From assembly GCA_030710605.1 (NCBI GenBank), contig CP092876.1:58333252-58397251 (forward strand): a stretch of 64,000 nucleotides of DNA. Reading direction: 5' to 3'. Positions 1,839-59,460 of this stretch are shown piece after piece. This DNA comes from Cordylochernes scorpioides. Lineage: Eukaryota > Arthropoda > Arachnida > Pseudoscorpiones > Chernetidae. The first letter of the stretch is position 1, and every line of letters starts with the position of its first letter. A program made the translations under genes and the position numbers. The notes beneath the pieces were generated by a model. The model did no database searches, was not told where the DNA came from, and saw nothing but the letters and a program-made list of their open reading frames with translations.

Positions 1839-1842
1839 TATA

Positions 1843-2630
1843 TGTCATAATTTGTATATAATTGTATGCCCCCCGACCCACTATGCATGTACAATGTATG
1901 ATTTTCAAAGATTTAATAAAGAATAAGGTAACTGGAGGAAAGAAAGTGGCAACAAGACATAGGAAGCAGGCTAAAAGCGGGCACAAGTATAAATAACTTG
2001 TACAGTCAATACTTCCTGGCAAGCCCGGACGTATCTGGTATCCGCAGAAGTTATATTAGTAGGGAGACGCCCAATATTTCCGGACAGGACCGGACGTATT
2101 TGATAGCCGCGGAAGTAAATAGAGTCGAACTAACACCCGATACTTCCTATCAGGCCGGGCATATCTTTCACCAAAGAAAGCCGCCGGTCCAATTAGGAAG
2201 GAATAACTAAATAGGTCAACCAATAGAAAAACGGGCACGTTCCATCCTTCGACCAATGGGAAGGAAGACAACTCGTGGTGTTAAATCGAAAAGCAAGAAT
2301 TGTCAGTAGTGATTTGGCTCTCATAGGAACAACACCTAGAGTTGCTCCTTCGCTCCCAACGAGGTGACATCTGCTCTGGACCTCTCTCCCTCCGCTCAGC
2401 CCATAGCTAAGTACAATCACCGCCATGTGATCAGATAATTAACAATCAAAATCGCTCCGCTCTTCTCAAGCTTTCTTTCCTCCAACCCAGTTGCCTTTTA
2501 TTTTCAAACCCCATCACGTGTCCTGATTATTCCTAACTGTATGCTTAAACTTCCACTCAAACGACTGCGCTTCAACCAAATCTCACCATTCTCATCGAAC
2601 AACAAGAAATTCCGCAACGATATTGTCACA
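1843..2630 (+). repeat. 5' LTR
   Basis: 788 bp, TG...CA ended, offset exactly 4,878 bp from the 3' LTR. The short frames read through both copies are identical, so the LTRs look virtually identical and the insertion looks recent. Confidence 0.9.
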
Positions 2631-2660
2631 GAACGGATAAGTCGACAGGATAAAGATATT

Positions 2661-3506
2661 ATGGAGCTTAATCAGGATCCCATAGGTGTAAAGTCGGACG
2701 GCCCGACGGAAACAACGGAAAGAAGGCAAGAAGTAAGAGAGACGGGCGAGACAACTGCGCCCCTAGCGGACGCCGTCACCCAGCTATCGGCGCTCCTGAC
2801 CCGAGTAAAGATTTCTGAAGGAGCTGAGGCGACAATCCCGCCTTTCGATGGCACATACAACGCGATCCAGTTTTTCCAGACGTTCGACCGAAAAATGGAA
2901 GGCGCCTCCATGGGAGAACAAGAGAAATTACTCCGCCTGCCAAACTATCTGGTGCGACAACCCCTGGAGCTCTTCAGGAAACTTCGGATGGCCGACCGGA
3001 GCTATTTCCAGGTGAGGCAAACCCTCCTAGATCTCTATCCTGAGTCAAGCGAAGCGTCCTTTGCGAAATATTTCGCCATGAAGCTTACTGGGCAAGCCAA
3101 CCTAGAGACCTACTACCGGGAGAAAACCGCCATGGGATTGCAACTAGGACTTCCACAGGAGGTGATTCTCGAGACGCTGACAGAAGGACTGCCATTCAAC
3201 GACCAGCGCCTAGTCCGCGTAGTGCCTCCCGAGAACCTAGGAGAGTGGTTCCGACTGGTACAGCGGATCCACGGGCCCAGTGTACCGACAACGCGACTCA
3301 GAGAAGATCAACCACCCACAATGTCGGGTCCGTATCACAGCACACCCCGACGCCCAGGTGCATGGAATGCACCTCTTCCGCCGTCCAACTGCAAGTTCTG
3401 CGGCGCGAGGCACTGGCACAGCGAATGCCAACATCGAGCAGTCCCGAGCCCCAAACCAACCAACTCAAGCCAAGACGTCCCAGCCGAGCAGCCCTTTCGA
3501 GACTAA
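2661..3506 (+). CDS. Gag-like protein of the LTR retrotransposon
   Basis: About 281 residues if started at the first ATG inside the internal region (2661). The same frame is open upstream to an ATG at 2541, but that lies inside the LTR, so 2661 is preferred. The N-terminal third is acidic and polar. The centre has an aromatic and basic retrotransposon-gag core (FDGTYNAIQFFQTFDRKM, about residues 67-84). Near the C terminus, CKFCGARHWHSEC is the compact zinc knuckle seen in many arthropod Ty3/gypsy Gags. It would package element RNA. The pol-remnant frame overlaps the end of this frame by about 230 bp in the +1 phase, as in elements that use frameshifting. The frame is intact. Confidence 0.75.
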   Translation: MELNQDPIGVKSDGPTETTERRQEVRETGETTAPLADAVTQLSALLTRVKISEGAEATIPPFDGTYNAIQFFQTFDRKMEGASMGEQEKLLRLPNYLVRQPLELFRKLRMADRSYFQVRQTLLDLYPESSEASFAKYFAMKLTGQANLETYYREKTAMGLQLGLPQEVILETLTEGLPFNDQRLVRVVPPENLGEWFRLVQRIHGPSVPTTRLREDQPPTMSGPYHSTPRRPGAWNAPLPPSNCKFCGARHWHSECQHRAVPSPKPTNSSQDVPAEQPFRD

Positions 3507-5445
3507 GGTAGGCACCCCCCCTATGGCGTCAAGAATTGACTTTGAACTCTTATCTAACCCTACCTACCCCTTTAACCATGTATCTAAACATGTACCAAAT
3601 GAATGCAAGCACGGGCTAGACCAAAACCTGTCCCAAAGGACTCGTACAGCACACAAAGCTCTCACACATGGAAACCCTTGCCTGCATTCATTGCCCAAAC
3701 CTCAAATATTTACATGCCACCATTCTAATCTCACACCACGCAACTTTTCATGCCCGCAACATATAAAGCCACCACGACTTCAACCTACAATTCCAATAAT
3801 GCCCAAAAAAGTGTCCGTACACCGACACAGCTCACCCACTTACCACGCAAATGTACCTCACAACATACACGCACCCATACGTCACCACGCAACAAACACG
3901 CACAACCCGCACAACAAACGCAACACGCGCGCCAAAAGACAACAACAACAAACAAGCGCATGCACAACCGTTAAGAATAATACAATCATCCCGTCTACAC
4001 AAAACATAGAAAAAATTCACGCCACCAAACAACCACACAATCGAAAAACATTGCGATCTTTCCTAAAAGCTGTGAACGCCTATAAAGAGTTCATTCCGGA
4101 CCACGCCCGCTTGCGGACGCCACTTGTCAACCTTCTAAAAAAGGATGTCGTGTGGGTCTGGAGTGACGAATGCCAGAAAGCGTTCACTAACCTGAAAGAA
4201 AGCCTTACCACACACCCCACATTATACCTTTACCAAGAAGGTCTGCCATGCCAGGTGTACTGTAACACCTCAACATTCGGCATTGCAGGCATTCTTAAAC
4301 AAGTCTACCCTGATGGGAAGACATACCCAGTTCAACATTTCAGCCGCTCTCTGCGTGGTCACGAGCGAAATTATTCAGACTTGGAACTACAATGCCTAGC
4401 CATTGTGGAAAGTGTGGATAACTTCCGCGCCTGTCTAATGGGCAGAAAGTTTACAATACTTTCTGACCATCCTGCATTGCAGTGGTTGAAAGAGATCAAA
4501 GCCCCGTCAGGCAGATTATTTCGATGGAGGTTAAGACTGTCAAGATACGAATATGAGGTCCGTAGCATAAATGGAGTACAACAATATGAAACGGGCGTTG
4601 TAACTCGTATCCCATTTTGTGGCTTTCTAGATGCGCCACTCATACAGAGCCAACAGTCTTCTCCACCGAGAAAATCTCGCGTGACTATGGATCACAATAA
4701 ACTGCGCACCGTCTCCCGAAAAGGAGTACTTAAAACTATAGTCCCAAGTTCACTTACAACCAGACTTCTTAAGTCCGTACACACACAACACCACCACCCA
4801 AACATCTCCAAGATGACGAGACTCATCTCGTCACAATATTATTGGCAGAACATGACACAAGACATCGCAAAACAGGTAAAAACCTGCCCCACCTGCCGAT
4901 TCGCTAGAAGAATCGATGAATCCGACCAACCTTCACGTAAAAATACCGACACAGGCCCCAAAACAAAACAAAATTCGTACATAAAGCACAGCGTACACAC
5001 AACACAAACAATGCCAAAATTACACCACCCACGTCAGAGAAACGATCACACATCTCAACTTAAATCAATTACCGCCGACATATCGCTAATAAAACCATTA
5101 ACGATCAAACAAGAGAACTGCGAACCTACCAATCATTTAAATTCTACAATTAATAAGATTCGAACAAATATTTCAGAGTCCCCATTTACAAAAATATGGA
5201 GGAACATGGGGCAATACCCTATCTTTCATCTGATTTTCATCCTTTGTTTGTTAGTTCTACCATACAAATGTATCCCAATTTTATTCATTAATTATTTGTT
5301 TATCTATACCATGCCCGCTCATAAAATTTTCGAACTACAAGAGGCAGTTTTTAATTTTGGACAAGCATTTATAAAACTTCTCATAATTTTAGGAAACATT
5401 TTTGCAGAAAATCTAAATAAACTCCGAAGAGATAGAAGTAACTGA
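3280..5445 (+). pseudogene. Pol remnant: RNase H plus integrase zinc-binding region, RT palm missing
   Basis: Open for 721 codons, but only the middle is recognisable. The first ~240 codons overlap gag and then run through A/C-rich, low-complexity sequence that resembles no known domain. From about 4040 the frame matches the end of RT and the RNase H region of Ty3/gypsy Pol (AFTNLKESLTTHPTLYLY, HFSRSLRGHERNYSD, LSDHPALQWLK). From about 4730 it matches an integrase H2C2 region (HTQHHHPNISKMTRLI, then CPTC). The first RNase H acid is replaced: CNTSTFG stands where the family has D-A-S. The tail carries two hydrophobic segments (about 5220-5310). No YxDD box, protease triad or integrase DDE core was seen, so it cannot replicate alone. 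The open but scrambled frame is odd for a dead copy. Confidence 0.7.
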
Positions 5446-6130
5446 AAGATGACCAACCAATGTCGGAGAAGTCACACTCCAAAAACAAGATGCAAATAGC
5501 ACACAAAATCAATTAGGCGGACAGGAAACGTAGTTCCACCACTTCCAGATCCAATTACGTGCAAATAGAGAGGAAGTCTTGCTGCCCCCACGTTCCATGT
5601 CCGGTTTCTAATTACCATCCCTCGACCAGCAGCTAAATTGAGGTCAACTGGGAACCTCTCTATGCCACCGATTTTGGATTCCAATTCAAGCCTGCGCATC
5701 GACTTTTACAATGTCAATCAAATCGACTGTCATTCGAAAATCAAACAAGGTACACGCACACACATTTCTTACACAACAGACTTCTAACATTTTCCACAAC
5801 ACACACAAAGACAAAAAATTTATAGGGCATAATTGAGCAATTAAAACATTTATAGGGCATGTAGATATACAAAAGGGTTCAAACCAATACACCTTATTTT
5901 TCATATTAATCATTTTCATTATTTTCTCTCAATTAAAATTTAAATATATAATCAATTTATCAATTTATTCAACTTATTATCACTTTTAATCATTAATTAT
6001 CATTTTTTTTACCAATTAGTTTATATTATCATAATTTCAAATCAACGAGAACTCATTGGTTTTCTTTTAAAATTGGATATTATATTTTATTTTGATTTAC
6101 AAAAACATTCTTTTTTTATTTCTTTTTTCC
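5446..6130 (+). other. Non-coding part of the LTR element
   Basis: AT-rich internal sequence between the pol remnant and the T-rich tandem block. No domain or RNA gene recognised. Confidence 0.5.
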
Positions 6131-6540
6131 ACCATGCAACAAAACATTTTTCCTTTTTCTCACCATGCAACCAAACATTCACTTTGATTTCTTCCAACTT
6201 TTTATTTTTATTTTTATTTTTTGATTTCTCAAAAGACCTAATAAAAATCCCTCGATTTCCATTCCCAATTTCGAGCAAGAATATGGTTAGGCATTTTTCC
6301 TTTTTTTTTTTCACCATGCATCAAAGCATTTTTTTTTCCAACATGCAACCAAGCATTTACTTTGATTTCTTCCAACTTTTCATTTTTATTTTTGATTTCT
6401 CAAAAGCCCTAATAGAACTCCCTCGTTATTATCTCCAATTTCGAGTAGAAATTAGTTAGGCGCATTTTCTTTTCTTTTTAATCCACTATGTACCATAGCA
6501 TTCATTTTGATTTCTTACAATTAAAAAATTTTTTGATTTC
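6131..6540 (+). repeat. T-rich tandem repeat inside the LTR element
   Basis: About 2.5 imperfect units of roughly 160-190 bp. Each unit has CACCATGCAACC-like boxes, TTTGATTTCTTCCAACTTTT, TTTGATTTCTCAAAAG and a CCTCG..AATTTCGAG segment. It lies just upstream of the 3' LTR. Confidence 0.7.
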
Positions 6541-6720
6541 TATTAATTACACTCAACCTATATCATCAACACCATTCTATTTTACTTCTTATATCACCAC
6601 CAATGCTTGTATATAACCTCTCAATACCCACAACTAAATTTCCCACAAAATTATTTTTCACTTTACAGAATTCTCTCAGGCTAACCCCTTCTTGAATTCT
6701 TCACATGTAGGGGGCGCATC

Positions 6721-7508
6721 TGTCATAATTTGTATATAATTGTATGCCCCCCGACCCACTATGCATGTACAATGTATGATTTTCAAAGATTTAATAAAGA
6801 ATAAGGTAACTGGAGGAAAGAAAGTGGCAACAAGACATAGGAAGCAGGCTAAAAGCGGGCACAAGTATAAATAACTTGTACAGTCAATACTTCCTGGCAA
6901 GCCCGGACGTATCTGGTATCCGCAGAAGTTATATTAGTAGGGAGACGCCCAATATTTCCGGACAGGACCGGACGTATTTGATAGCCGCGGAAGTAAATAG
7001 AGTCGAACTAACACCCGATACTTCCTATCAGGCCGGGCATATCTTTCACCAAAGAAAGCCGCCGGTCCAATTAGGAAGGAATAACTAAATAGGTCAACCA
7101 ATAGAAAAACGGGCACGTTCCATCCTTCGACCAATGGGAAGGAAGACAACTCGTGGTGTTAAATCGAAAAGCAAGAATTGTCAGTAGTGATTTGGCTCTC
7201 ATAGGAACAACACCTAGAGTTGCTCCTTCGCTCCCAACGAGGTGACATCTGCTCTGGACCTCTCTCCCTCCGCTCAGCCCATAGCTAAGTACAATCACCG
7301 CCATGTGATCAGATAATTAACAATCAAAATCGCTCCGCTCTTCTCAAGCTTTCTTTCCTCCAACCCAGTTGCCTTTTATTTTCAAACCCCATCACGTGTC
7401 CTGATTATTCCTAACTGTATGCTTAAACTTCCACTCAAACGACTGCGCTTCAACCAAATCTCACCATTCTCATCGAACAACAAGAAATTCCGCAACGATA
7501 TTGTCACA
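6721..7508 (+). repeat. 3' LTR
   Basis: Same 788-bp sequence as the 5' LTR, from TGTCATAA to TTGTCACA. Followed by TATA, the presumed target-site duplication. Confidence 0.9.
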
Positions 7509-12349: not shown

Positions 12350-12566
12350 AACACAAGGTAATAAGACAAAATCCAAATGAATAAATAGTGTGTGACGTTT
12401 CGGTAATAGAATTGTTCCCATCTTCAGACAAAAGTAATGCTAAAATCATTCAGTACTTTTGTCTGAAGATGGTAACAATGCTTTTACCGAAATGTCACAC
12501 ACTATTTATTTGGATTTGGTCTTATTACCTTGTGTTTATAATCTATAATCCAAATTGTGCTTTGTC
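12350..12566. mobile_element. Family A foldback repeat, copy A1
   Basis: Palindromic: the left part AACACAAGGTAATAAGAC..AATAGTGTGTGACGTTTCGG is mirrored by CCGAAATGTCACACACTATT..GTCTTATTACCTTGTGTT, ending in ATAATCCAAATTGTGC. The right arm carries the hammerhead-like block CTGAAGATGG..ACCGAAATGTC at 12466-12499. It lies just after the GTPase gene. Confidence 0.85.
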
Positions 12567-12654
12567 GAAAACAATATTCAGAAATATCTTCTGAATTTAT
12601 TTTCATTTGGCAAACTTTAAAAAAAAATCGATATTAATTTTATAAAAATTAAAG

Positions 12655-12932
12655 GCACCCTATGTAAATTTTGTGTTTGTGTTTCCCAAAGATGACCTGA
12701 GTCCACTTGTTTATGAAGACAGTCAATAAATGGCGCTTAGTTTTGGAATCTATTTTAACAAGAAAAGGTCCATTTCTTCTTCTTGAGATAAGAAAGAAGG
12801 AAGACACCCTTTCAGGGTAAAATATATTCCAAAACTAAGAGTCATTTATTGACAGTCTTCATAAACAAGCGGACTCAGATCAGTGACCATCATCTTTGGG
12901 AAACTTAGACACAAAATTTACATAAACTATAT
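12655..12932. repeat. Foldback repeat E
   Basis: Inverted arms of about 100 bp (12655-12757 and 12825-12932). Left has CAAAGATGACCTGAGTCC and AAGACAGTCAATAAATGG; right has their complements. A purine-rich spacer separates the arms. No coding content. Confidence 0.75.
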
Positions 12933-12984
12933 TTGGGGTATAGAATTGACCAAGCTAATTTACCAGCCAAGCACCTCTCTGGTA

Positions 12985-13127
12985 ACTACAAGATAATAAG
13001 ACCTTATTTAAATAAATTAATAGTGTGTGACATTTTGGTAACTGCATTGTTACCGAAACATCACACTATTAATTCATTTGGATTAGGTCTTATTTTTTTT
13101 AGCTATAATCCTAATTGTACTTTATCA
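12985..13127. mobile_element. Family A foldback repeat, copy A2 (short)
   Basis: Arms AATAGTGTGTGACATTTTGG and its mirror flank a small hairpin. The right end is GCTATAATCCTAATTGTAC. The ribozyme-like loop block is missing. Confidence 0.75.
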
Positions 13128-13149
13128 CCCTAGTAAATTGTGAATCCCT

Positions 13150-13275
13150 CGTAGAGTTCATGGAACAGCCCTGGACAATTGTCTATGGGTCGGCTTTTCA
13201 ATCTGCCAAAGCTGGCTTTGTGACAGAGTCCACTAATTTGCAAAGACAGTCTCTAGATGGCACTTTCAATGTATA
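13150..13275 (+). repeat. Degenerate family D fragment
   Basis: CATGGAACAGCCCTGG, CTGCCAAAGCTGG and TCTAGATGGC match the 3' half of the element at 20723-21092. The hammerhead core of that element is lost here. Confidence 0.55.
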
Positions 13276-13324
13276 TTTTAAACTGAGAGATTACCTTTTT
13301 TTCAAAAATTTCCATTTATATTTC

Positions 13325-20570: not shown

Positions 20571-20722
20571 CAGAACCTGACATACTTGCCACGCTCATTT
20601 ATTTGAACTAACACAGAAATGGATATTGAAATAAATTATTCTCATAATATTATTGTGGCTTCATTATAAAGATTTGTTTATTTAAAAGGAAAATATTTAT
20701 AAATTTTAACAAATATTTCTAT

Positions 20723-21092
20723 ATATGGAAAATTTGCCGGGAGGAAATTGATCCATTGAAGCATAGGGCGCCTCTCCTGTCAAAATAAACGTCAACACCT
20801 GACGCCATCTAGCCTTAGATTTGGCCCAGTCACTTAGCCAGCTAAACACCTCTTTGGCAGATTGTCAAGATTCCATTAGATCCCGTGTGGATCTCATGGA
20901 ATAAAGTCCGCCCTGGGCTGACGAGGGCTATTAGCCTGAAACCATGGTCTCTAGGTGGACGCTTCTCAGTTTGCCAAAGCTGGTGTTGTGGCTTTGTCAC
21001 CGACCTGAGGCCGCTAGTTTGCGGTACGGTCAATAGATGGCGTCAGGTTTTGACGTTTATTTTGTCAGGAGAGGCGCCCTATGCCTCAATGG
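20723..21092 (+). mobile_element. Family D foldback element carrying a hammerhead motif
   Basis: Terminal inverted arms of about 57 bp (20755-20811 and 21033-21089): ATTGAAGCATAGGGCGCC at the left, its near-complement at the right. AAATATTTCTAT occurs on both sides (20711-20722 and 21093-21104), and uninterrupted T3 copies have it once, so it is a 12-bp target-site duplication. About 30 extra bases sit between the left duplication and the left arm. Inserted in a T3 relic. Confidence 0.85.
20906..20960 (+). ncRNA. Hammerhead ribozyme, short stem III (predicted)
   Basis: Every invariant position is present. GTCCGCCCTGGG (20906-20917) forms one strand of stem I. CTGACGA (20918-20924) is the first core box. 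GGGC-TATTA-GCCT closes stem II. GAA then ACCATGGT forms a minimal self-complementary stem III. C at 20949 is the cleavage-site nucleotide (GGTC), and TCTAGGTGGAC (20950-20960) returns as stem I. Stem I has 6 pairs including two G-U, an internal loop and 4 more pairs, as in natural hammerheads. Structure judged by eye. Confidence 0.75.
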
Positions 21093-21126
21093 AAATATTT
21101 CTATGTTGAAAATTAAAAAGAAAATG

Positions 21127-22450: not shown

Positions 22451-22705
22451 ATTTATTTATAAAGGACTGCGGCGTATGATTATAAAACAACACTTAAAGT
22501 TTCACCGCATAAGTTTCTTTTCTGTGAAAAATCAATATTTATTTCAAAGAGAAATATTTACTATTTCTAACTTTTTTGGATGAAGTTAGAAATAGTAAAT
22601 ATTTCTCTTTGAAATAAATATTGATTTTTCACAGAAAAGAAACTTATGCGGTGAAACTTTAAGTGTTGTTTTATAATCATACGCCGCAGTCCTTTATAAA
22701 TAAAT
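22451..22705. repeat. Perfect 122-bp inverted repeat with 11-bp spacer
   Basis: 22451-22572 and 22584-22705 are exact reverse complements as far as I can check. The ends are ATTTATTTATAAAGG and CCTTTATAAATAAAT. Spacer 22573-22583. No related sequence elsewhere in the window. The right end runs straight into a family A arm. Confidence 0.9.
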
Positions 22706-22815
22706 AGTGTGTATAAAATATGGAATGCTTCACCATTTTGTGTCATCCTTGTGCAGGGGTCATGCTAATCTTCTATTTCACCCACTATTTATTTATTTGG
22801 CCTTATTACCTTGTG
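22706..22815. mobile_element. Family A arms around a U6 snRNA fragment
   Basis: AATAAATAGTGTGT at the left and CCCACTATTTATTTATTTGG..TTATTACCTTGTG at the right are family A arms. The usual central hairpin is replaced by the U6 fragment. Confidence 0.7.
22715..22774 (-). pseudogene. U6 snRNA 3' fragment
   Basis: On the minus strand it reads AGAAGATTAGCATGACCCCT, then TGCACAAGGATGACAC and GGTGAAGCATTCCATATTTT: the 3' 60 nt of U6 with a few changes. The 5' half of U6 is absent. Confidence 0.9.
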
Positions 22816-25541: not shown

Positions 25542-26717
25542 AAGGAAAAACAGGGTAACGTGGTAAGATTCTTTAATAGAACACGACGAGCTTTCAGGCA
25601 GCAACTGCCCTTCTTCAGGTCTTATACAAGTGTAGACAAAGAAGTGCCATATTTATAAGCGAAAATATTTACATATATACGCGCAAGGAATAAGGAATTT
25701 TACATACTGAAGATTGGAAAGGGGAATTTGCATATTTACAAATAAAATAAAACAAACTCTGTGTGAGAAATAGAGGCAAAAAACTGAGATAAAAATAAAA
25801 CTGAAGGCAAAACACGGAGATAAAAATTGAACCGTAAATAACAATAAAACCCAGAAACATATCAGCGAGTGAGGCCGTAAAATATTGTATATTGCGGTGG
25901 GAGATCAATCTTCCGGTTAAAACTGGGAGTACAGTTGGACACCAGTGCTTCCAGAACCAAGCGTTGGTACTTGTTTCCAATATCCCTGTATACAGAAATC
26001 GTATCGTCTAAATTAAAGGAATGGTCGAAATCTGCCATGTGTTGAAAGATGAGAGATTTTCGATCTTTGGAACGTATATTACGGTTGTGTTCGCGGATTC
26101 TAGTGGCGATGGTTCGACCAGTTTCACCAATGTAGCATTGCTCACAATCGTTGCATGATATTTTATAGATGCCGTTATTGAGGGATAGAGGGTTAAGTTT
26201 GATGGAGCTTTTTGTTATGGGGTGCCGTAAGGATGCTTCTAGGGAAGGCGAATTTTTGAAAAACGTGCGAATACCGAATTTTCGTAAAAATAACGCAATA
26301 TCAGAGTTCGTGGTCGAAAAAGGAAGGACACAGACGTTTTTATACAGCGGAGGTGTAACTTTTTTGTGGTTCGGAATGTAAAAATGGCGGTCAATAAAAT
26401 TATGAGGGTAACCGGCGGATAAAAGATGGGTGTAAACGGTACGCTTCTCGATCGTTCTAAATAAGGCAAGGGAACAATGAGTATATACCCGTTTGGAGAG
26501 AGTTTTTACCGTGGTGATTTTGTGAGAAACCGGGGCATGTGATAAAAAGTGTAAATAGGAGGGAGTGAAGTTAGGCTTGCGAAATACGGTGGTCTGAAAA
26601 GTGCCATTAGTGTTGATGACTAAAACGTCTAAAAACGGGATGCAATTAAAACAGGATGGGTTGTGAGTAAAACGGAGATCATGATGGTATGAGTTTAAAA
26701 CCGTGAGTATGGGGAGA
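25542..26717 (-). repeat. Left inverted arm of the Penelope-like element
   Basis: About 1,175 bp, minus-strand copy of 28001-29177 with only a few differences. It contains an intact C-terminal coding segment where the right arm has a stop (CGA here, TGA there at 28656-28658). Confidence 0.92.
25587..25623 (-). ncRNA. Hammerhead-like motif, left arm
   Basis: Mirror of 29101-29137: CTGAAGA, AGGGCAG/CTGCCT stem, GAAA, then GCTCGTC on the minus strand. Confidence 0.4.
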
Positions 26718-28658
26718 ATTAGAGGCTCCCGTGCTATGATCCGTTTTTTACAAAAAACCATCAGAGGTCTGCTTTGCCTGCTCTCTCCCAGAATCCCTTC
26801 CAATGATCTCGGCTCTCTTGTACAAGGCATAACCGCCCGAGTTAAACTTCAGAACTCTGAGATTGAACTCCGGCACCAGAGGAAGCTGGAATTCTGGCAC
26901 GTGAAATATGGTTTTCCCTCGCTCACCCGCTCCCCCTCTGAAGATACCATTGTTAACCTAACCGACATCGTATTTTCAGACAAGCAGATATCCCTACTAG
27001 AGAAAGGCCTTAGTTTTCGGTTGCCCAATGAACCTGATCTTTTATACACGATTAGCTGTATTGAATCTTCCCTCCAGCACCAGTCCCACACAGACAAACA
27101 TCACATCCGTTCTACCATAGCCAACAAACTTCTTGCTGCTTACAAGAGTTCTTCATCTCGCTCCAATTCCGTCAAGAGCGATCTTGCCTCCTTGAAAGCC
27201 CTCAAGAGCCATCATGATATCCTCATCACTAAATCAGATAAGGGCTCACAAGTAGTTGTGTTAAAAGTTGATGATTACAAGAAGAAAATGTCTGATATCC
27301 TTTCAGACTCCGATACCTTCCAAGAGATTTCACCTGAACGTGTTTGTGCTATTTCTGGTGCCTACAAATCATCACTCAGATTGCTCAGAAGAAACGAATG
27401 CATTACTCCCGATCAGTTCCAGCAGTTTACCTCCAATCTTTCTATGGTTCCATATATATATGGCCTACCAAAAACCCATAAGCCCCGTGTCCCCCTTAGA
27501 CCCATAGTTGCTTACCATCTGTCACCCGCCTTACCACTAGCCAAATACCTTTCTAGCCTTCTAAAACCCCTGGTCAAAACTCATAATCTTTACTCGGTAC
27601 AAGATCCATCTGAATTTTTTACAAGATTAAAGAATGTCCCCCAACCTCGTGGTCTCACCATGTCGACTTTTGACGTGACATCACTCTTTCTGCGCCTCCC
27701 GCATTCTCTGATCATAGATGGCCTAGAGCAACTTCTTTCTTCTTCCACTCTTCCTAGTAATGATCAAAAAACCATCTTGGATCTATTCACCATCTGCCTT
27801 GACATGAATGCTTTAGAATTCGAAGGCTGTTTCTTTGTACAGATGAGAGGCTCCCCTATGGGCAGCCCTCTTTCCACAATAGCAGCTGAGATTGTTATGT
27901 CTAATCTGGACCGGTGGTTAGTTTCCCATAATCATTTGGGGATCGAGATGTGGTCGAGGTACGTTGACGACATTTTTTGCCTCCATCGTGATACCGACCA
28001 TCTCCCCATACTCACGGTTTTAAACTCATACCATCATGATCTCCGTTTTACTCACAACCCATCCTGTTTTAATTGCATCCCGTTTTTAGACGTTTTAGTC
28101 ATCAACACTAATGGCACTTTTCAGACCACCGTATTTCGCAAGCCTAACTTCACTCCCTCCTATTTACACTTTTTATCACATGCCCCGGTTTCTCACAAAA
28201 TCACCACGGTAAAAACTCTCTCCAAACGGGTATATACTCATTGTTCCCTTGCCTTATTTAGAACGATCGAGAAGCGTACCGTTTACACCCATCTTTTATC
28301 CGCCGGTTACCCTCATAATTTTATTGACCGCCATTTTTACGTTCCGAACCACAAAAAAGTTACACCTCCGCTGTATAAAAACGTCTGTGTCCTTCCTTTT
28401 TCGACCACGAACTCTGATATTGCATTATTTTTACGAAAATTCGGTATTCGCACGTTTTTCAAAAATTCGCCTTCCCTAGAAGCATCCTTACGGCACCCCA
28501 TAACAAAAAGCTCCATCAAACTTAACCCTCTATCCCTCAATAACGGCATCTATAAAATATCATGCAACGATTGTGAGCAATGCTACATTGGTGAAACTGG
28601 TCGAACCATCGCCACTAGAATCCGCGAACACAACCGTAATATACGTTCCAAAGATTGA
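26709..28658 (+). CDS. Penelope-type reverse transcriptase/GIY-YIG protein, C-terminally truncated
   Basis: 649 residues from the ATG at 26709, just inside the end of the left arm. The N-terminal ~200 residues are helical and basic, then come the RT signatures: YGLPKTHKPRVPLRPI, a thumb-side QMRGSPMGSPLS near residue 380 and the catalytic YVDD near 418. The C-terminal endonuclease shows GIYKIS near 613 and CYIGETGR near 625. A TGA at 28656-28658 ends it just after the R-E-H-N box of the nuclease, some 65 codons before the end that the inverted arm still encodes. RT would prime from the endonuclease nick. The truncation may impair the nuclease; otherwise the frame is intact. Confidence 0.92.
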   Translation: MGRIRGSRAMIRFLQKTIRGLLCLLSPRIPSNDLGSLVQGITARVKLQNSEIELRHQRKLEFWHVKYGFPSLTRSPSEDTIVNLTDIVFSDKQISLLEKGLSFRLPNEPDLLYTISCIESSLQHQSHTDKHHIRSTIANKLLAAYKSSSSRSNSVKSDLASLKALKSHHDILITKSDKGSQVVVLKVDDYKKKMSDILSDSDTFQEISPERVCAISGAYKSSLRLLRRNECITPDQFQQFTSNLSMVPYIYGLPKTHKPRVPLRPIVAYHLSPALPLAKYLSSLLKPLVKTHNLYSVQDPSEFFTRLKNVPQPRGLTMSTFDVTSLFLRLPHSLIIDGLEQLLSSSTLPSNDQKTILDLFTICLDMNALEFEGCFFVQMRGSPMGSPLSTIAAEIVMSNLDRWLVSHNHLGIEMWSRYVDDIFCLHRDTDHLPILTVLNSYHHDLRFTHNPSCFNCIPFLDVLVINTNGTFQTTVFRKPNFTPSYLHFLSHAPVSHKITTVKTLSKRVYTHCSLALFRTIEKRTVYTHLLSAGYPHNFIDRHFYVPNHKKVTPPLYKNVCVLPFSTTNSDIALFLRKFGIRTFFKNSPSLEASLRHPITKSSIKLNPLSLNNGIYKISCNDCEQCYIGETGRTIATRIREHNRNIRSKD

Positions 28659-29177
28659 AAATCTCTCATCTTTCAACACATGGCAGATTTCGACCATTCC
28701 TTTAATTTAGACGATACGATTTCTGTATACAGGGATATTGGAAACAAGTACCAACGCTTGGTTCTGGAAGCACTGGTGTCCAACTGTACTCCCAGTTTTA
28801 ACCGGAAGATTGATCTCCCACCGCAATATACAATATTTTACGGCCTCACTCGCTGATATGTTTCTGGGTTTTATTGTTATTTACGGTTCAATTTTTATCT
28901 CCGTGTTTTGCCTTCAGGTTTAATTTTTATCTCCGTTTTTTGCCTCTATTTCTCACACAGAGTTTGTTTTATTTTATTTGTAAATATGCAAATTCCCCTT
29001 TCCAATCTTCAGTATGTAAAATTCCTTATTCCTTGCGCGTATATATGTAAATATTTTCGCTTATAAATATGGCACTTCTTTGTCTACACTTGTATAAGAC
29101 CTGAAGAAGGGCAGTTGCTGCCTGAAAGCTCGTCGTGTTCTATTAAAGAATCTTACCACGTTACCCTGTTTTTCCTT
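28001..29177 (+). repeat. Right arm of the Penelope-like element
   Basis: Holds the last ~220 codons of the ORF, the 3' untranslated tail and a hammerhead-like block. Inverted relative to 25542-26717. Confidence 0.92.
29101..29137 (+). ncRNA. Hammerhead-like motif, right arm
   Basis: CTGAAGA (29101-29107), stem II AGGGCAG-TTG-CTGCCT with one bulged G, GAAA, then GCTCGTC with C as cleavage nucleotide. Stem I pairs GTATAAGAC with GTGTTCTAT with two mismatches. Stem III has only the closing A-U. Penelope-like elements are known to carry minimal hammerheads, which supports the call. Confidence 0.5.
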
Positions 29178-29192
29178 TGACTCTTGTGAAAC

Positions 29193-29730
29193 GTCCCGCT
29201 CCAAACTTTGGGTCTGAGAAGCGATATTTTTATAAAGAGATGATCTGGCTTTGTGTCTTCTGCTCGAATGAATGTTTTTCTGTTAGAATTTTGTTCCTGC
29301 ATACTAAAAATGAACTGGCTTCACCCGTGGTCTCTGCTTTTTGGAATTTTTCCGGATATAATTTTGTATCTGATAATCAAATATGATACAGCAATATTGT
29401 CATCATCATTTTCTGAATAAAAAACAACTATTTTTTCCCCAGAACCTGTCAATTTATTTTTCTTGACTAAAAATCAGAAAAATATCTTTTCCAGATTTTT
29501 CTCTATGTCCTGTTAAAACACGTTTTACATGTCCATTAGGTCAGCTGATATTACCTCCCATCTTCACCGCTAGAGGCGCTGCTTGCGAGCAAAAGGGCAA
29601 ATTTGCAACGCAATTTGCAAATAACTTGTATACTTGTGCACATAGACTATAAATCTGTACATAGACAGGAAAAGTACATATATTTTAATAATATAAATGA
29701 GTTTTAAAAATTGTAAAAAAAAAAAAAAAT
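29193..29730. other. Remainder of the interrupted Helitron and unassigned sequence
   Basis: The first ~30 bp continue the Helitron split by the Penelope insertion. No gene or further repeat recognised in the rest. Confidence 0.4.
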
Positions 29731-29800
29731 GCATCGGCTGGGAATCGAACCCGGGGCGCATGCATGGCAGGCGAGCATTCTACCACTGAACCACCGATGC
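29730..29800 (-). tRNA. tRNA-Gly(GCC)-like gene, diverged
   Basis: Minus strand: acceptor GCATCGG pairs fully with CCGATGC. D arm TGGTTCAGTGGTAGAAT, anticodon loop CTGCCAT (GCC), T arm GGGTTCGATTCCC. Two mismatches in the anticodon stem (CTCGC against GCATG) and one in the T stem suggest a pseudogene or a fast-evolving copy. A long T run follows immediately as a pol III terminator. No intron. Confidence 0.75.
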
Positions 29801-38510: not shown

Positions 38511-38859
38511 TTTCATCGCAGTAAGGATAGTAGAAGTTTGTATTATGTATAAAAGAAACATTCATGCATTTAAATCCTTTTATATGGACATAAGCTTTGA
38601 GGACAGCAGAATTACATACAATTATAAGTATTTATATATATAATCACATTTAAATGTTTAGCTTGAAAATGCTGACAATGGGCCACTGAAAGCATTGAGA
38701 AGTAAAGTTGAAGAAAGTTATGTTTATTTGTTTCCTGGAGACAAAGATTTTGAATCCAAGAGGTGGTAATAGATGAGGGTAACAACACCAAATCGCTTAT
38801 GTACCGCCTTTGAAACTCCGCTGGAAAACTCTTGTTGGTCCCAAGCCCGGATGAAAAAG

Positions 38860-39175
38860 GAGGAGGGGAGCAGTAACAAGCTTTCTAAAAAAACCTGGGT
38901 TCAGCTGGCCTGGCTGATAGTACCCTGAAGGGCTCCTAATCCAGGTATACAGGATGAGCAGCGTTTGTAGTCCATGTTATGAGCGGCTGCACATGGTGTC
39001 TGTTCCTCATGTCAGAGGGGACCATTTCTTTTGGAGTTAAGTTGGCCTGCCACTGAGTAGTGCTCCCAGTCTTAATGACAAAGGCAGAAACAATCTACTT
39101 CACCCAGTCATGATGGTTGTCAAGTTTCAAGCTTTACAAGCATGATACCTTAAAACGATTGGTTGGAAATAAGAA
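38860..39175 (-). repeat. Dispersed repeat C
   Basis: About 315 bp, near-complete. AGCAGTAACAAGC, GGGCTCCTAATCCAGG, TCTGTTCCTCATGTCAGAGG and CTGCCACTGAGTAGTGCTCC. Same orientation as 41935-42265. Confidence 0.8.
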
Positions 39176-46197: not shown

Positions 46198-46744
46198 CCT
46201 TACTGGTTAAATGGGCATTTTAGATAGCAGAGCGACACCTAGTGGAATGAATATCAATTAAACGTTGATTTAGTTTTACTCCAGATTATTGACCTATCCA
46301 TTTTTTGCCAAATCAAGAAAACCCAACCATATATGCATTTATCTTGCTACCTGATCTTCTCCCCATTTCTTACTTATTTCCTAACTTTTCTCTCACAGGT
46401 TTGTGTGTACTCGCATAAACTTGCCTCGTTTCTACCCAATTCTTGATTTTCCAGGAATCCTCTAAGACAGGCCATTTTGGTCATTGAGGTATTGCCTACA
46501 CCACATTGATGATAGCCAACTGCCAAAAACATGTACAAGGTTGATTTTCATGACTTATCAAGACAATAGGTTGGCCAATATTATGGAATAAAATAAATCA
46601 ACTCATTGTTTTCCACTAGATGACTCTACCACCTTCAGAATAGGCCCTTTTTTTTTTCTATTTTGCTACCCAACCTTCTTTTTTTTCTTGCTGCTTTCCT
46701 TTTTTTCGCACTATTTCTTGTCTGTAAAAGTTCTCGCTTTTTAA

Positions 46745-47264: not shown

Positions 47265-47700
47265 TGTGCAAATAAAAGTTGCAAATGGCATGTTGGAATA
47301 AATATCAAATAATCATTGATTTTTAAATATTCCACAGAATTGGCCAAATTTACCCTTTCTTGATTACTCAAGAAAGGCTAACCACATACACATTTCAAAC
47401 TGTTGGCCCTCATCAGTGTGGTACAAGCTGTACCTTGGCGATTAAAAAAAGCTTGTCCTTGAGACTTCCTGAAAAAAAAATAAAGAATGGGTATTTAAAG
47501 CTGGAAGGGCATGAGGATGCCAAACTATATTTTAAAAAAGTAGTGCAAAAGTGTGTTGTACTGGGATCAGGTGGATAAATTACAAGTAAGGCATCTACTG
47601 ATTGTGAAACTGAAAGTTGCTAACGGCTTGCACTATCTCTGTCAGAATAAATATCAATGATTAGTTTATATTTATTCCCAACAGATGGTGCAATCCATTT
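47265..47700 (-). mobile_element. Family G foldback repeat carrying a hammerhead motif
   Basis: Ends mirror each other around GATTGTGCAAATAAAAG..TTGGAATAAATATCAA and TATTTATTCCCAACAGATGG..TTGCACAATC. The centre has TTGGCCCTCATCAG and GGGTATTTAAAGCTGG, shared with 59205-59460. Contains the hammerhead at 47381-47422. Confidence 0.7.
47381..47422 (-). ncRNA. Compact hammerhead ribozyme motif (predicted)
   Basis: Minus strand: ACCACA, CTGATGA (exact consensus), GGGC-CAACA-GTTT as stem II with G-U pairs, GAA, then ATGTGT as a minimal stem III, A at the cleavage position, and TGTGGT. ACCACA and TGTGGT form a perfect 6-bp stem I. The sister copy at 59350 has stem II GGGC/GCCT but has lost the GAAA box. 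Confidence 0.6.
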
Positions 47701-49778: not shown

Positions 49779-50585
49779 TATATATAAAAGTCAGTGTATG
49801 TTTGTTTGTCAGCTATACATGTGCACAATACGTAACTAATCTCTGGCTTAAATTTTAACAGTATATAGAGTTGAATCTAGAAACATTTATAGGCAAATTT
49901 TCAGGCTTCTCTCTCGAATATCCTTATAGTTATTAACAAATTTTCCTTATTTCACTCTCAACCAGCGCCTCACTGCGGTAACTTCGAGAAGTAAAGTTGA
50001 GGAAGGATGGACCACGTAGGGCGACGGTGACCTTGAGTGATGTAATGACGGCTTAGGGGCAAGATATCACTTGCTATAATTTTATGTATATATCAAATTT
50101 AAAATATATTAATATAAAAATCAAAATAATACAAATTTCAAAAATCATTGTGAAATTACATTTTATTTTTATATTTTAAAAACACACAAAGTTTGGAGCT
50201 GGACGCTTCACAAGAGTAACATCCACGGCGGCAATTTATAATTGTAATGAATAGTATTTGAATAAAACATTTAATTGGGTGTTGCCCGGGTCATTCGGCT
50301 AGTATAGTATAAAATTCCACATAAAAAAATCAATGTTTTGTTATTTTATTTTTATTTAGAAAGATGGCACTCAACAATATTTAATCAGTAGATTCTCGTC
50401 AGTCTAAAATAATGAATTTAGTCTCTCATGTGCATCAATTGGAAAACATGCACTAGGTATACAAGAAGCATTGCATGAAATCTAACAGGTCTTTTGTCAC
50501 CTTGTTATTTGTCAGATTCGGTTTTTCTCAGGTGTAGATGATAAAACCTTGGAATTTTATTTTAAAAAAAAAACATTACTATATA

Positions 50586-58786: not shown

Positions 58787-59204
58787 GATCAGTGTAAACT
58801 CTGCATGGCTCGAAAACTAACATAACGGAGAACAAGTGATACGACAACATGGTAATGCTGTCTGGTTAATGGCTTGGCTGGGCTACACTTGGCCTTCAAC
58901 CCGAAATGTATACATGGTTGGCTTTTCTTGATTTATCACTGATTTCGGTTCTTGATTTATCAAGAAAATGGGATGGCCAAATATGGAACAAACCTAAATC
59001 AATGTTTAGCTGATATTTTTGCCACTAGATGGCGCTTTGTGATTTAAAACATTCATGTTAGCAGTGAGGATATGCCTCTTTTATTTGAATATATAGCTCT
59101 ATAATAGAAGGTGTGTTTAGTTTATGTTTCCCAGAATTGTGCCGGGAGCCAACTTATCGATGTGTAATATATAATGTAATTCAAAACAAAATAGGCATAT
59201 CCTG

Positions 59205-59460
59205 ACCACTCACATGAGCTTTTTAGATGCCAGAGCGCCATCTAGTGAAACAGAAATCAACTAAACGTTGATTTAACCTGTTCCCTGATATTTGGCCAAC
59301 CCATTTTCTTGATAAATCAAGAAAAGCCATCCACGAGCGCAATTAAGGCTGTTGGCCCTCATCAGCATAGTGCAGACTGTACCTCTGACCAAAAATTTTG
59401 TCCCAGAGGCTTCTTGAGAAATCAAGAACTGGGTATTTAAGGCCAAACTTGTGTAAATAG
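59205..59460 (-). repeat. Family G repeat, degenerate
   Basis: TTTTTAGATGCCAGAGCG, GTTGGCCCTCATCAGC, GGGTATTTAAGGCC. Contains a hammerhead remnant (minus strand CTGATGA, GGGC-CAACA-GCCT) without GAAA. Ends about 40 bp before exon 3. Confidence 0.7.

Follow-up and report, generated by a model that had tools for sequence, protein, structure and literature searches.

A putative hammerhead ribozyme in a foldback element of probable retrozyme type in the genome of the pseudoscorpion Cordylochernes scorpioides

RESULTS

The foldback element and its hammerhead

The window, by which we mean the whole 64,000-nucleotide stretch of Cordylochernes scorpioides DNA under analysis, contains at 20723-21092 (+) a foldback element of 370 nt with a GC content of 0.497, recognized from its fold energy (z -18.35 for 20723-21104) and from matches elsewhere in the genome. 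Arms of 68 nt, 91% complementary, pair at 20744-20811 and 21034-21101; the left arm is assigned to 20752-20811 (+), where it is part of an 88-nt segment, and the right arm, the reverse complement of the left, to 21034-21092 (+). The element is bracketed by a 12-bp direct repeat, AAATATTTCTAT, at 20711-20722 on the left and 21093-21104 on the right, which constitutes a target-site duplication. The earlier note on this DNA, made from the letters alone, had described inverted arms and a 12-bp target-site duplication, and both were recovered; genome copies uphold the foldback host, and exact repeats also flank some sister copies. The arms of the window copy are uneven, with about 29 nt extending beyond the pairing on the left side only, and both full arms are present in some other copies of the same family (family 1). 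By our reading of the sequences, neighboring units would have the 88-nt arm segment in common, and in other copies this segment flanks the ribozyme unit in one orientation or the other.

The type I hammerhead ribozyme predicted within this element, a member of family 1, occupies 20906-20960 (+), and its parts were read from the sequence on the same strand: the 5' strand of stem I (20906-20917), the core CUGACGA (C3 to A9, CTGACGA in DNA; 20918-20924), stem II and its loop, GGGC-UAUUA-GCCU (20925-20937; GGGC-CAUUA-GCCC in the family-1 majority), GAA (20938-20940), stem III, ACCATGGT, running from A15.1 to U16.1 (20941-20948), C17 (20949), and the 3' strand of stem I (20950-20960). Cleavage is predicted directly 3' of C17, between 20949 and 20950. 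Type I hammerheads are described in PMC3088659 by C3 U4 G5 A6 N7 G8 A9, G12 A13 A14, an A15.1-U16.1 pair, and H17; these letters are present in the window copy and in 27 of 30 family-1 copies, and no mispair adjoins the core in stems I, II, and III if the G.U pairs of the window copy are counted as pairs. All invariant positions had been claimed for 20906-20960 at the outset, and every core letter was indeed found in the sequence, as was a stem II of four pairs with a TATTA loop (GGGC-TATTA-GCCT). Stem I differs from the earlier drawing of 10 pairs around an internal loop: 11 pairs can be formed, G.U in three cases, if C20913 is left as a single bulged base. Wobble pairs occupy two of the three core-adjacent positions (20917/20950 and 20925/20937), and since the majority sequence of 30 family-1 copies is Watson-Crick at all three, the window copy is a slightly worn one. 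Stem III is an 8-nt palindrome, ACCAUGGU, which could form either two pairs and a palindromic tetraloop, CAUG, or an 8-bp duplex between two RNAs; the proposal of a minimal, self-complementary stem III of the dimer type was upheld by the copies from the source genome.

In 100 dinucleotide shuffles of the window, a loose hammerhead descriptor matched 0.02 loci per shuffle. Searched with the true core, the real window contains two matches (20918 [+] and 47416 [-]), of which one is strong, and the reversed window none; decoy cores made of the same letters gave any match in the real window in 8 of 300 cases and one as strong as the 20906-20960 candidate in 0 of 300. On the basis of shuffles, decoy cores, the reversed window, and the random flanks described below, a chance origin was rejected.

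The minimum-energy fold of the lone window 55-mer (-20.4 kcal/mol) is not a hammerhead, the hammerhead fold standing at -14.4 kcal/mol, and that of a single majority 55-mer is not a hammerhead either. When two family-1 majority 55-mers are cofolded, the minimum-energy prediction is a double hammerhead (-51.6 kcal/mol versus 2 x -22.2 for the single RNAs); in a linked dimer of the window copy, the hammerhead shape (-44.9) is less favorable than the minimum (-53.7).

Family 1 in the source genome

The search for sister copies that the earlier note had proposed was carried out in the 2.62-Gb assembly of 24 contigs from which the window derives, and it found them: family 1 yielded 3,443 first-look candidates, of which all 40 that were scored matched the host element, and the core is kept in 27 of the 30 copies read. 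Those 30 loci (L001 to L030), like the 30 loci of a second family described below (L031 to L060), were chosen as the best matches to window copies and are biased samples for that reason. The core is imperfect in three copies, through a change of U16.1 in L006 and L009 and of A13 in L012; within CUGACGA, no change is seen at the six specified positions in any of the 30 copies, and N7 is T in one. Mean column identity over the 55-nt hammerhead is 96% (30 copies). In a conservation profile of 28 of the 30 copies, with L025 and L029 left out, mean identity over the 11 core positions is 0.990; of 20,000 sets of positions drawn at random from the rest of the element, 132 reach this value, and the hammerhead as a whole is not the most conserved 55-nt stretch (0.961 versus a maximum of 0.974 elsewhere in the element).

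Exact direct repeats of 12 to 15 bp flank 8 of the 30 family-1 copies, compared with 1.3% of 870 mismatched flank pairs, although in two of those eight (L008 and L028) the repeat is TA-rich simple sequence. Overall, target-site duplications in family 1 are variable, at 11 to 15 bp, and are present in part of the copies.

A second core lies within 500 nt of the main core in divergent orientation at 7 of the 30 loci, with a spacing of approximately 300 to 316 nt in L003, L004, L006, L009, L014, and L018 and of 112 nt in L029. Convergent second cores occur within the same distance at two loci (L004 and L025) and same-strand cores at three (L003 at 319 nt, L018 at 413 nt, and L002 at 450 nt); some of these second cores are worn. 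Inverted family-1 pairs are, as judged by sequence, mostly divergent.

Within the window, a diverged family-1 relative at 12930-13290 (+) is split by another repeat at approximately 12988-13126. It is without the core CTGANGA..GAA and carries the palindrome ACAATTGT followed by C at 13175-13182; that the nearest window relative of the element has no core counts against the explanation that we favor below. A further family-1-related inverted fragment spans 12650-12927.

Genome-wide occurrence of the core

A pattern covering the core and silent on stems I and III, CTGAYGAGGGCNNNNNGCCYGAAA, has 33,887 exact matches in the genome, versus 0 for the reversed pattern. The first 30 matches (L061 to L090) lie on a single contig, do not constitute a random draw, and are family members rather than independent inventions. 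Among them, 29 of 30 have a stem III that is self-complementary, with G.U pairs counted, and an allowed H17 after it, against 14% of random flanks; a stem I of at least four contiguous pairs is present in 25 of 30, against 1.9%, and both stems are present in 24 of 30, against 0.3%. The stem III strings in these matches are ACGCGT (14 copies), ACCATGGT (12), ACGTGT (2), and ACATGT (1). Two core matches, L085 and L067, carry other outer stem I or subfamily letters and hint at more than two hammerhead subfamilies.

Duplications of at least 12 bp were seen in 0 of 12 testable family-1 copies of the core-pattern sample, which has automatically set boundaries and many truncated or nested copies. Many copies in this sample start inside the element and the right ends cluster, which fits 5' truncation on the ribozyme strand. 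Among 100 matches listed, divergent neighbors within 700 nt form six pairs, of which four belong to family 1 and two to family 2, and convergent pairs are absent; same-family neighbors on the same strand among those 100 belong to family 2 only, with none of family 1. An exact-pattern scan of viral contigs returned nothing.

A second family with the same stem II scheme

Family 2 yielded 4,819 first-look candidates, and 40 of 40 scored candidates match. Its majority sequence reads AGCTTGCACCACG-CTGATGA-GGGCCAACAGCCC-GAA-ACGCGT-A-CGTGGTTAGCT, with a stem I of six pairs, an internal loop, and four further pairs; in the better copies the stem II scheme is that of family 1, and the letters of stems I and III differ. 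Family-2 units occur head to tail, in an array of five on one contig (C1) with a spacing of exactly 338 nt and in pairs at 344 to 346 nt (two loci).

A family-2 element at 47301-47559 (-) in the window contains a hammerhead at 47383-47420, and decayed hammerheads are present in two relatives, at 59332-59369 within 59255-59447 (-) and at 46502-46535 within 46426-46599 (+). Two fragments were also identified, one with the 5' half of the hammerhead broken (58880-59017 [+]; E 1.1e-4) and one consisting of the 3' half only (46250-46340 [-]; E 0.021, below the inclusion threshold). The string CCACTAGATGGCGC occurs with up to two mismatches at six window sites, 59022, 59248 (-), 23262, 23199 (-), 46613, and 46245 (-), four of which adjoin family-2 pieces, and TAGATGGCG is present in copies of both families. 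CCACTAGATGGCGC resembles the CTCF binding site.

Covariance models and covariation

The Rfam match suggested in the earlier note as a check did not materialize, there being no hammerhead match at the window copy either at the gathering threshold or in a loose search up to E 10. Nothing was reported at the element in 20 of the 30 family-1 loci (E up to 10), and in 20 of the 30 family-2 loci (E up to 1) there was one match at the ribozyme, a sub-threshold Hammerhead_HH9 hit of 21.5 bits (cut-off, 52); none of the copies submitted reached a curated hammerhead cut-off. We attach little weight to this negative result because a Penelope-like motif from the window, given to Rfam as a yardstick, was likewise not reported as a hammerhead. 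Separate sub-threshold Hammerhead_HH9 matches of approximately 24 bits (cut-off, 52) lie in the flanks of the family-1 match at L004:2072-2137 (-) and L007:2513-2578 (-), where they overlap further hammerhead cores found by our core pattern.

A covariance model of our own, R1, was built from 59 genome copies of both families; its alignment (A2) holds 59 of 60 rows, the family-2 locus L059 being omitted because of a 3-nt insert and the lack of a core match. R1 finds four copies in the window, with E values from 1.1e-10 to 0.026. The copy at 20906-20960 scores 47.7 bits (E 2.5e-10) and that at 47383 scores 48.9 bits, both being themselves among the model rows (the window copies at 20914 and 47383, as L001 and L031), whereas the copies at 59332 (26.7 bits; E 1.1e-4) and 46502 (17.8 bits; E 0.026) are not. 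A weak fifth match at 50389-50406 (E 0.048) is without stem II.

The compensatory changes among sister copies that the earlier note had named as a test were seen between the families and not within family 1, where double changes are no more frequent than in shuffles. In family 1 alone, 95.4% of cells pair and there is almost no variation, with one double change, from G-C to A-U in stem II of L023, a number reached by 126 of 500 shuffles. In family 2 alone, where the alignment (A3) holds 22 of 30 rows after omission of those with length changes, 89.3% of cells pair and covariation does not exceed that of shuffles. When both families are taken together, 91.3% of cells pair and the covariation score exceeds 500 of 500 shuffles; double changes affect three of the four stem-I pairs, the only ones compared in that stem, and two of four stem-II pairs, and a total of five such pairs was reached by 106 of 500 shuffles. 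The shuffle control overstates the between-family signal because two groups of related rows drive it, and we read that covariation as probably reflecting a few independent events rather than 45 cells. The stronger and simpler argument is that two families with differing letters in stems I and III are predicted to form the same structure.

DISCUSSION

By sequence, the segment at 20906-20960 belongs to a known kind of ribozyme, the type I hammerhead. We consider it probable, at roughly 0.8, that its host at 20723-21092 represents a non-autonomous retroelement, non-coding and present in many copies, and that this element is a foldback variant of the metazoan retrozyme. Several of the features by which we recognize a retrozyme are found here: a type I hammerhead, a non-coding unit of approximately 150 to 450 bp with a GC content below 50% (370 nt, 0.497), and target-site duplications of more than 4 bp (8 of 30 loci, with 0 of 12 showing 12 bp or more in the core-pattern sample). 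The non-LTR retrozymes of metazoans are portrayed in PMC7229834 in the same terms, as small non-coding units, below 50% in GC content, that carry a type I hammerhead, are flanked by target-site duplications longer than 4 bp, give a highly self-paired RNA, and are present in very many copies, 126,247 hammerhead motifs being reported there for the axolotl (Cervera and de la Pena 2020). The stem III of each family corresponds to a form given for retrozymes in that source, AC-CAUG-GU of family 1 to two pairs with a tetraloop and A-CGCG-U of family 2 to one pair with a palindromic tetraloop, and the head-to-tail arrays of family 2 match the arrangement of animal retrozymes given there. Family 1 departs from the metazoan retrozymes in that it is present mostly as single copies or inverted pairs at the loci seen, not head to tail, and in that it has inverted arms of approximately 60 to 90 nt.

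Comparable hammerheads have been described in other animals. Those of Aedes aegypti (Perreault 2011, PMC3088659) are, by description, interspersed repeats with a palindromic stem III and loop III, as here, for which dimer action was proposed; the dimer stem given there is 10 bp, compared with 8 in family 1 and 6 in family 2. Newt and axolotl hammerheads share the weak helix III, with dimeric cleavage reported, and sit in tandem repeats of 330 to 350 nt, unlike family 1 (PMC6155905 and PMC7229834). We infer that the family-1 hammerhead may also act as a dimer.

The sense RNA of the element is most likely the ribozyme-carrying strand. Such an RNA would fold into a rod tipped by the hammerhead; two ribozymes would pair via ACCAUGGU and cleave after C20949. 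After ligation, the RNA would be reverse transcribed at an AT-rich target by an enzyme supplied in trans, for which a Penelope-like element, a kind of element also present in the window, is the likely helper. The growing cDNA could then snap back or switch template at the 5' end of the RNA, giving rise to divergent pairs; turn-back at this end would account for part of the cases, with convergent and same-strand pairs needing another event.

Of the alternatives, the one that survives best, although we regard it as improbable, is that the element is a MITE with terminal inverted repeats whose arms and copy number are due to a transposase, the hammerhead being a passenger. Long inverted arms, AT-rich targets, the copies with both full arms, and Tc1/mariner-type transposase remnants recognized by eye in the window would all suit such an element, but the symmetric terminal inverted repeats and fixed-length duplication expected of a MITE are not what we find: the window arms are uneven by the 29 nt or so on the left, duplications vary from 11 to 15 bp, copies in the core-pattern sample often start inside the element while their right ends cluster, and head-to-tail arrays are formed by family 2, which shares the stem II and the core.

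More doubtful still is an origin from a Penelope-like element, of which 20723-21092 would be a solo terminal repeat carrying the minimal hammerhead. The window does hold a Penelope-like element and other CTGANGA..GAAA repeats, and the hammerheads of such elements are presented in PMC7761336 and PMC11167929 as type I and retroelement linked, as here. However, they are minimal, without helix III or loop contacts according to PMC7761336, whereas our element is non-coding and has an 8-nt palindromic stem III; the Penelope-like motif of the window (CTGAAGAAGGGCAG..CTGCCTGAAAG) differs, and in a BLAST search of the element against the window there was no match to the Penelope-like stretch at 25542-29177. 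A position in the terminal repeat of a Penelope-like element combined with the lack of helix III, the mark of this hammerhead type, is not found at 20906-20960. The earlier note had compared the short stem III to both Penelope-like elements and retrozymes, and the Penelope likeness is loose. What the minimal hammerheads do in Penelope-like elements is itself described as a mystery in PMC7761336.

Least credible of all is a chance hammerhead-like string within an ordinary foldback element, since the absence of an Rfam hammerhead match at E up to 10, the two wobble pairs beside the core, and the preference of a single RNA for another fold are outweighed by a second family with different stems and by the repeated occurrence of core and stems, both among the 30 copies read and among the first 30 genome matches (of 33,887).

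The retrozyme reading, in its foldback form with inverted units more frequent than tandem ones at the loci seen, makes the element a new variant: neither this family nor a foldback retrozyme is described in the literature searched by title or start of abstract, in line with the statement in the earlier note that no description of the family was known. A bolder proposal, which we advance tentatively and think rather unlikely, is that foldback retrozymes constitute a distinct form of replication, in which the ribozyme would act mainly between two molecules, the rod shape of the RNA would cause the cDNA to turn back at the RNA 5' end, spread would be by inverted instead of tandem units, and neighbors would share and flip the 88-nt arms; the convergent and same-strand pairs lower its odds. 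If true, the genome would contain a tandem and a palindromic retrozyme family built around one ribozyme module, a natural experiment on how ribozyme geometry sets genomic form. A single genome in which one hammerhead core recurs exactly at least 33,887 times, in two families or more that have a common stem II and differ in the letters of stems I and III and, at the loci seen, in arrangement, offers a ready comparison of dimer-type ribozymes and bears on the spread of small protein-less ribozyme elements through animal genomes. To judge from the Rfam results, hammerheads whose stem III is palindromic may be undercounted in covariance-model surveys.

A number of other features of the window and its relatives were recorded. 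The Penelope-like element at 25542-29177 is an inverted pair with 927-nt arms 99% alike; a reverse transcriptase with a KTHK motif and a GIY-YIG end was recognized by eye at 25862-28658, and the ends carry CTGAAGAAGGGCAG..CTGCCTGAAAG at 29101 (+) and 25618 (-). A separate inverted-repeat family contains the hammerhead-like CTGAAGATGGTAAC..GTTACCGAAACGTC, with an extra base before stem II, at 12427 (-), 12463, 14903, 24862 (-), 25009, 61834 (-), and other sites. A gag/pol-like stretch recognized by eye sits between two direct repeats of 300 nt that are 100% identical, and the whole (1840-7017) is probably a recent LTR retrotransposon. A perfect inverted repeat at 22451-22705 has 123-nt arms that are 100% complementary and 9 nt apart. 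A U6-like match above the Rfam cut-off at 22714-22780 (-), covering 67 nt against a 105-position model, may be a retrocopy, and a tRNA match at 29730-29800 (-) is also above the cut-off. Sub-threshold matches to twister type P1 (32.6 to 47.9 bits; cut-off, 67.2) were obtained at 38809-38871 in the window and at L023:2528-2582, L027:3048-3102, L013:3188-3242, L007:322-373, and L041:1704-1753; repeats of the source genome may accordingly harbor a second class of ribozyme.
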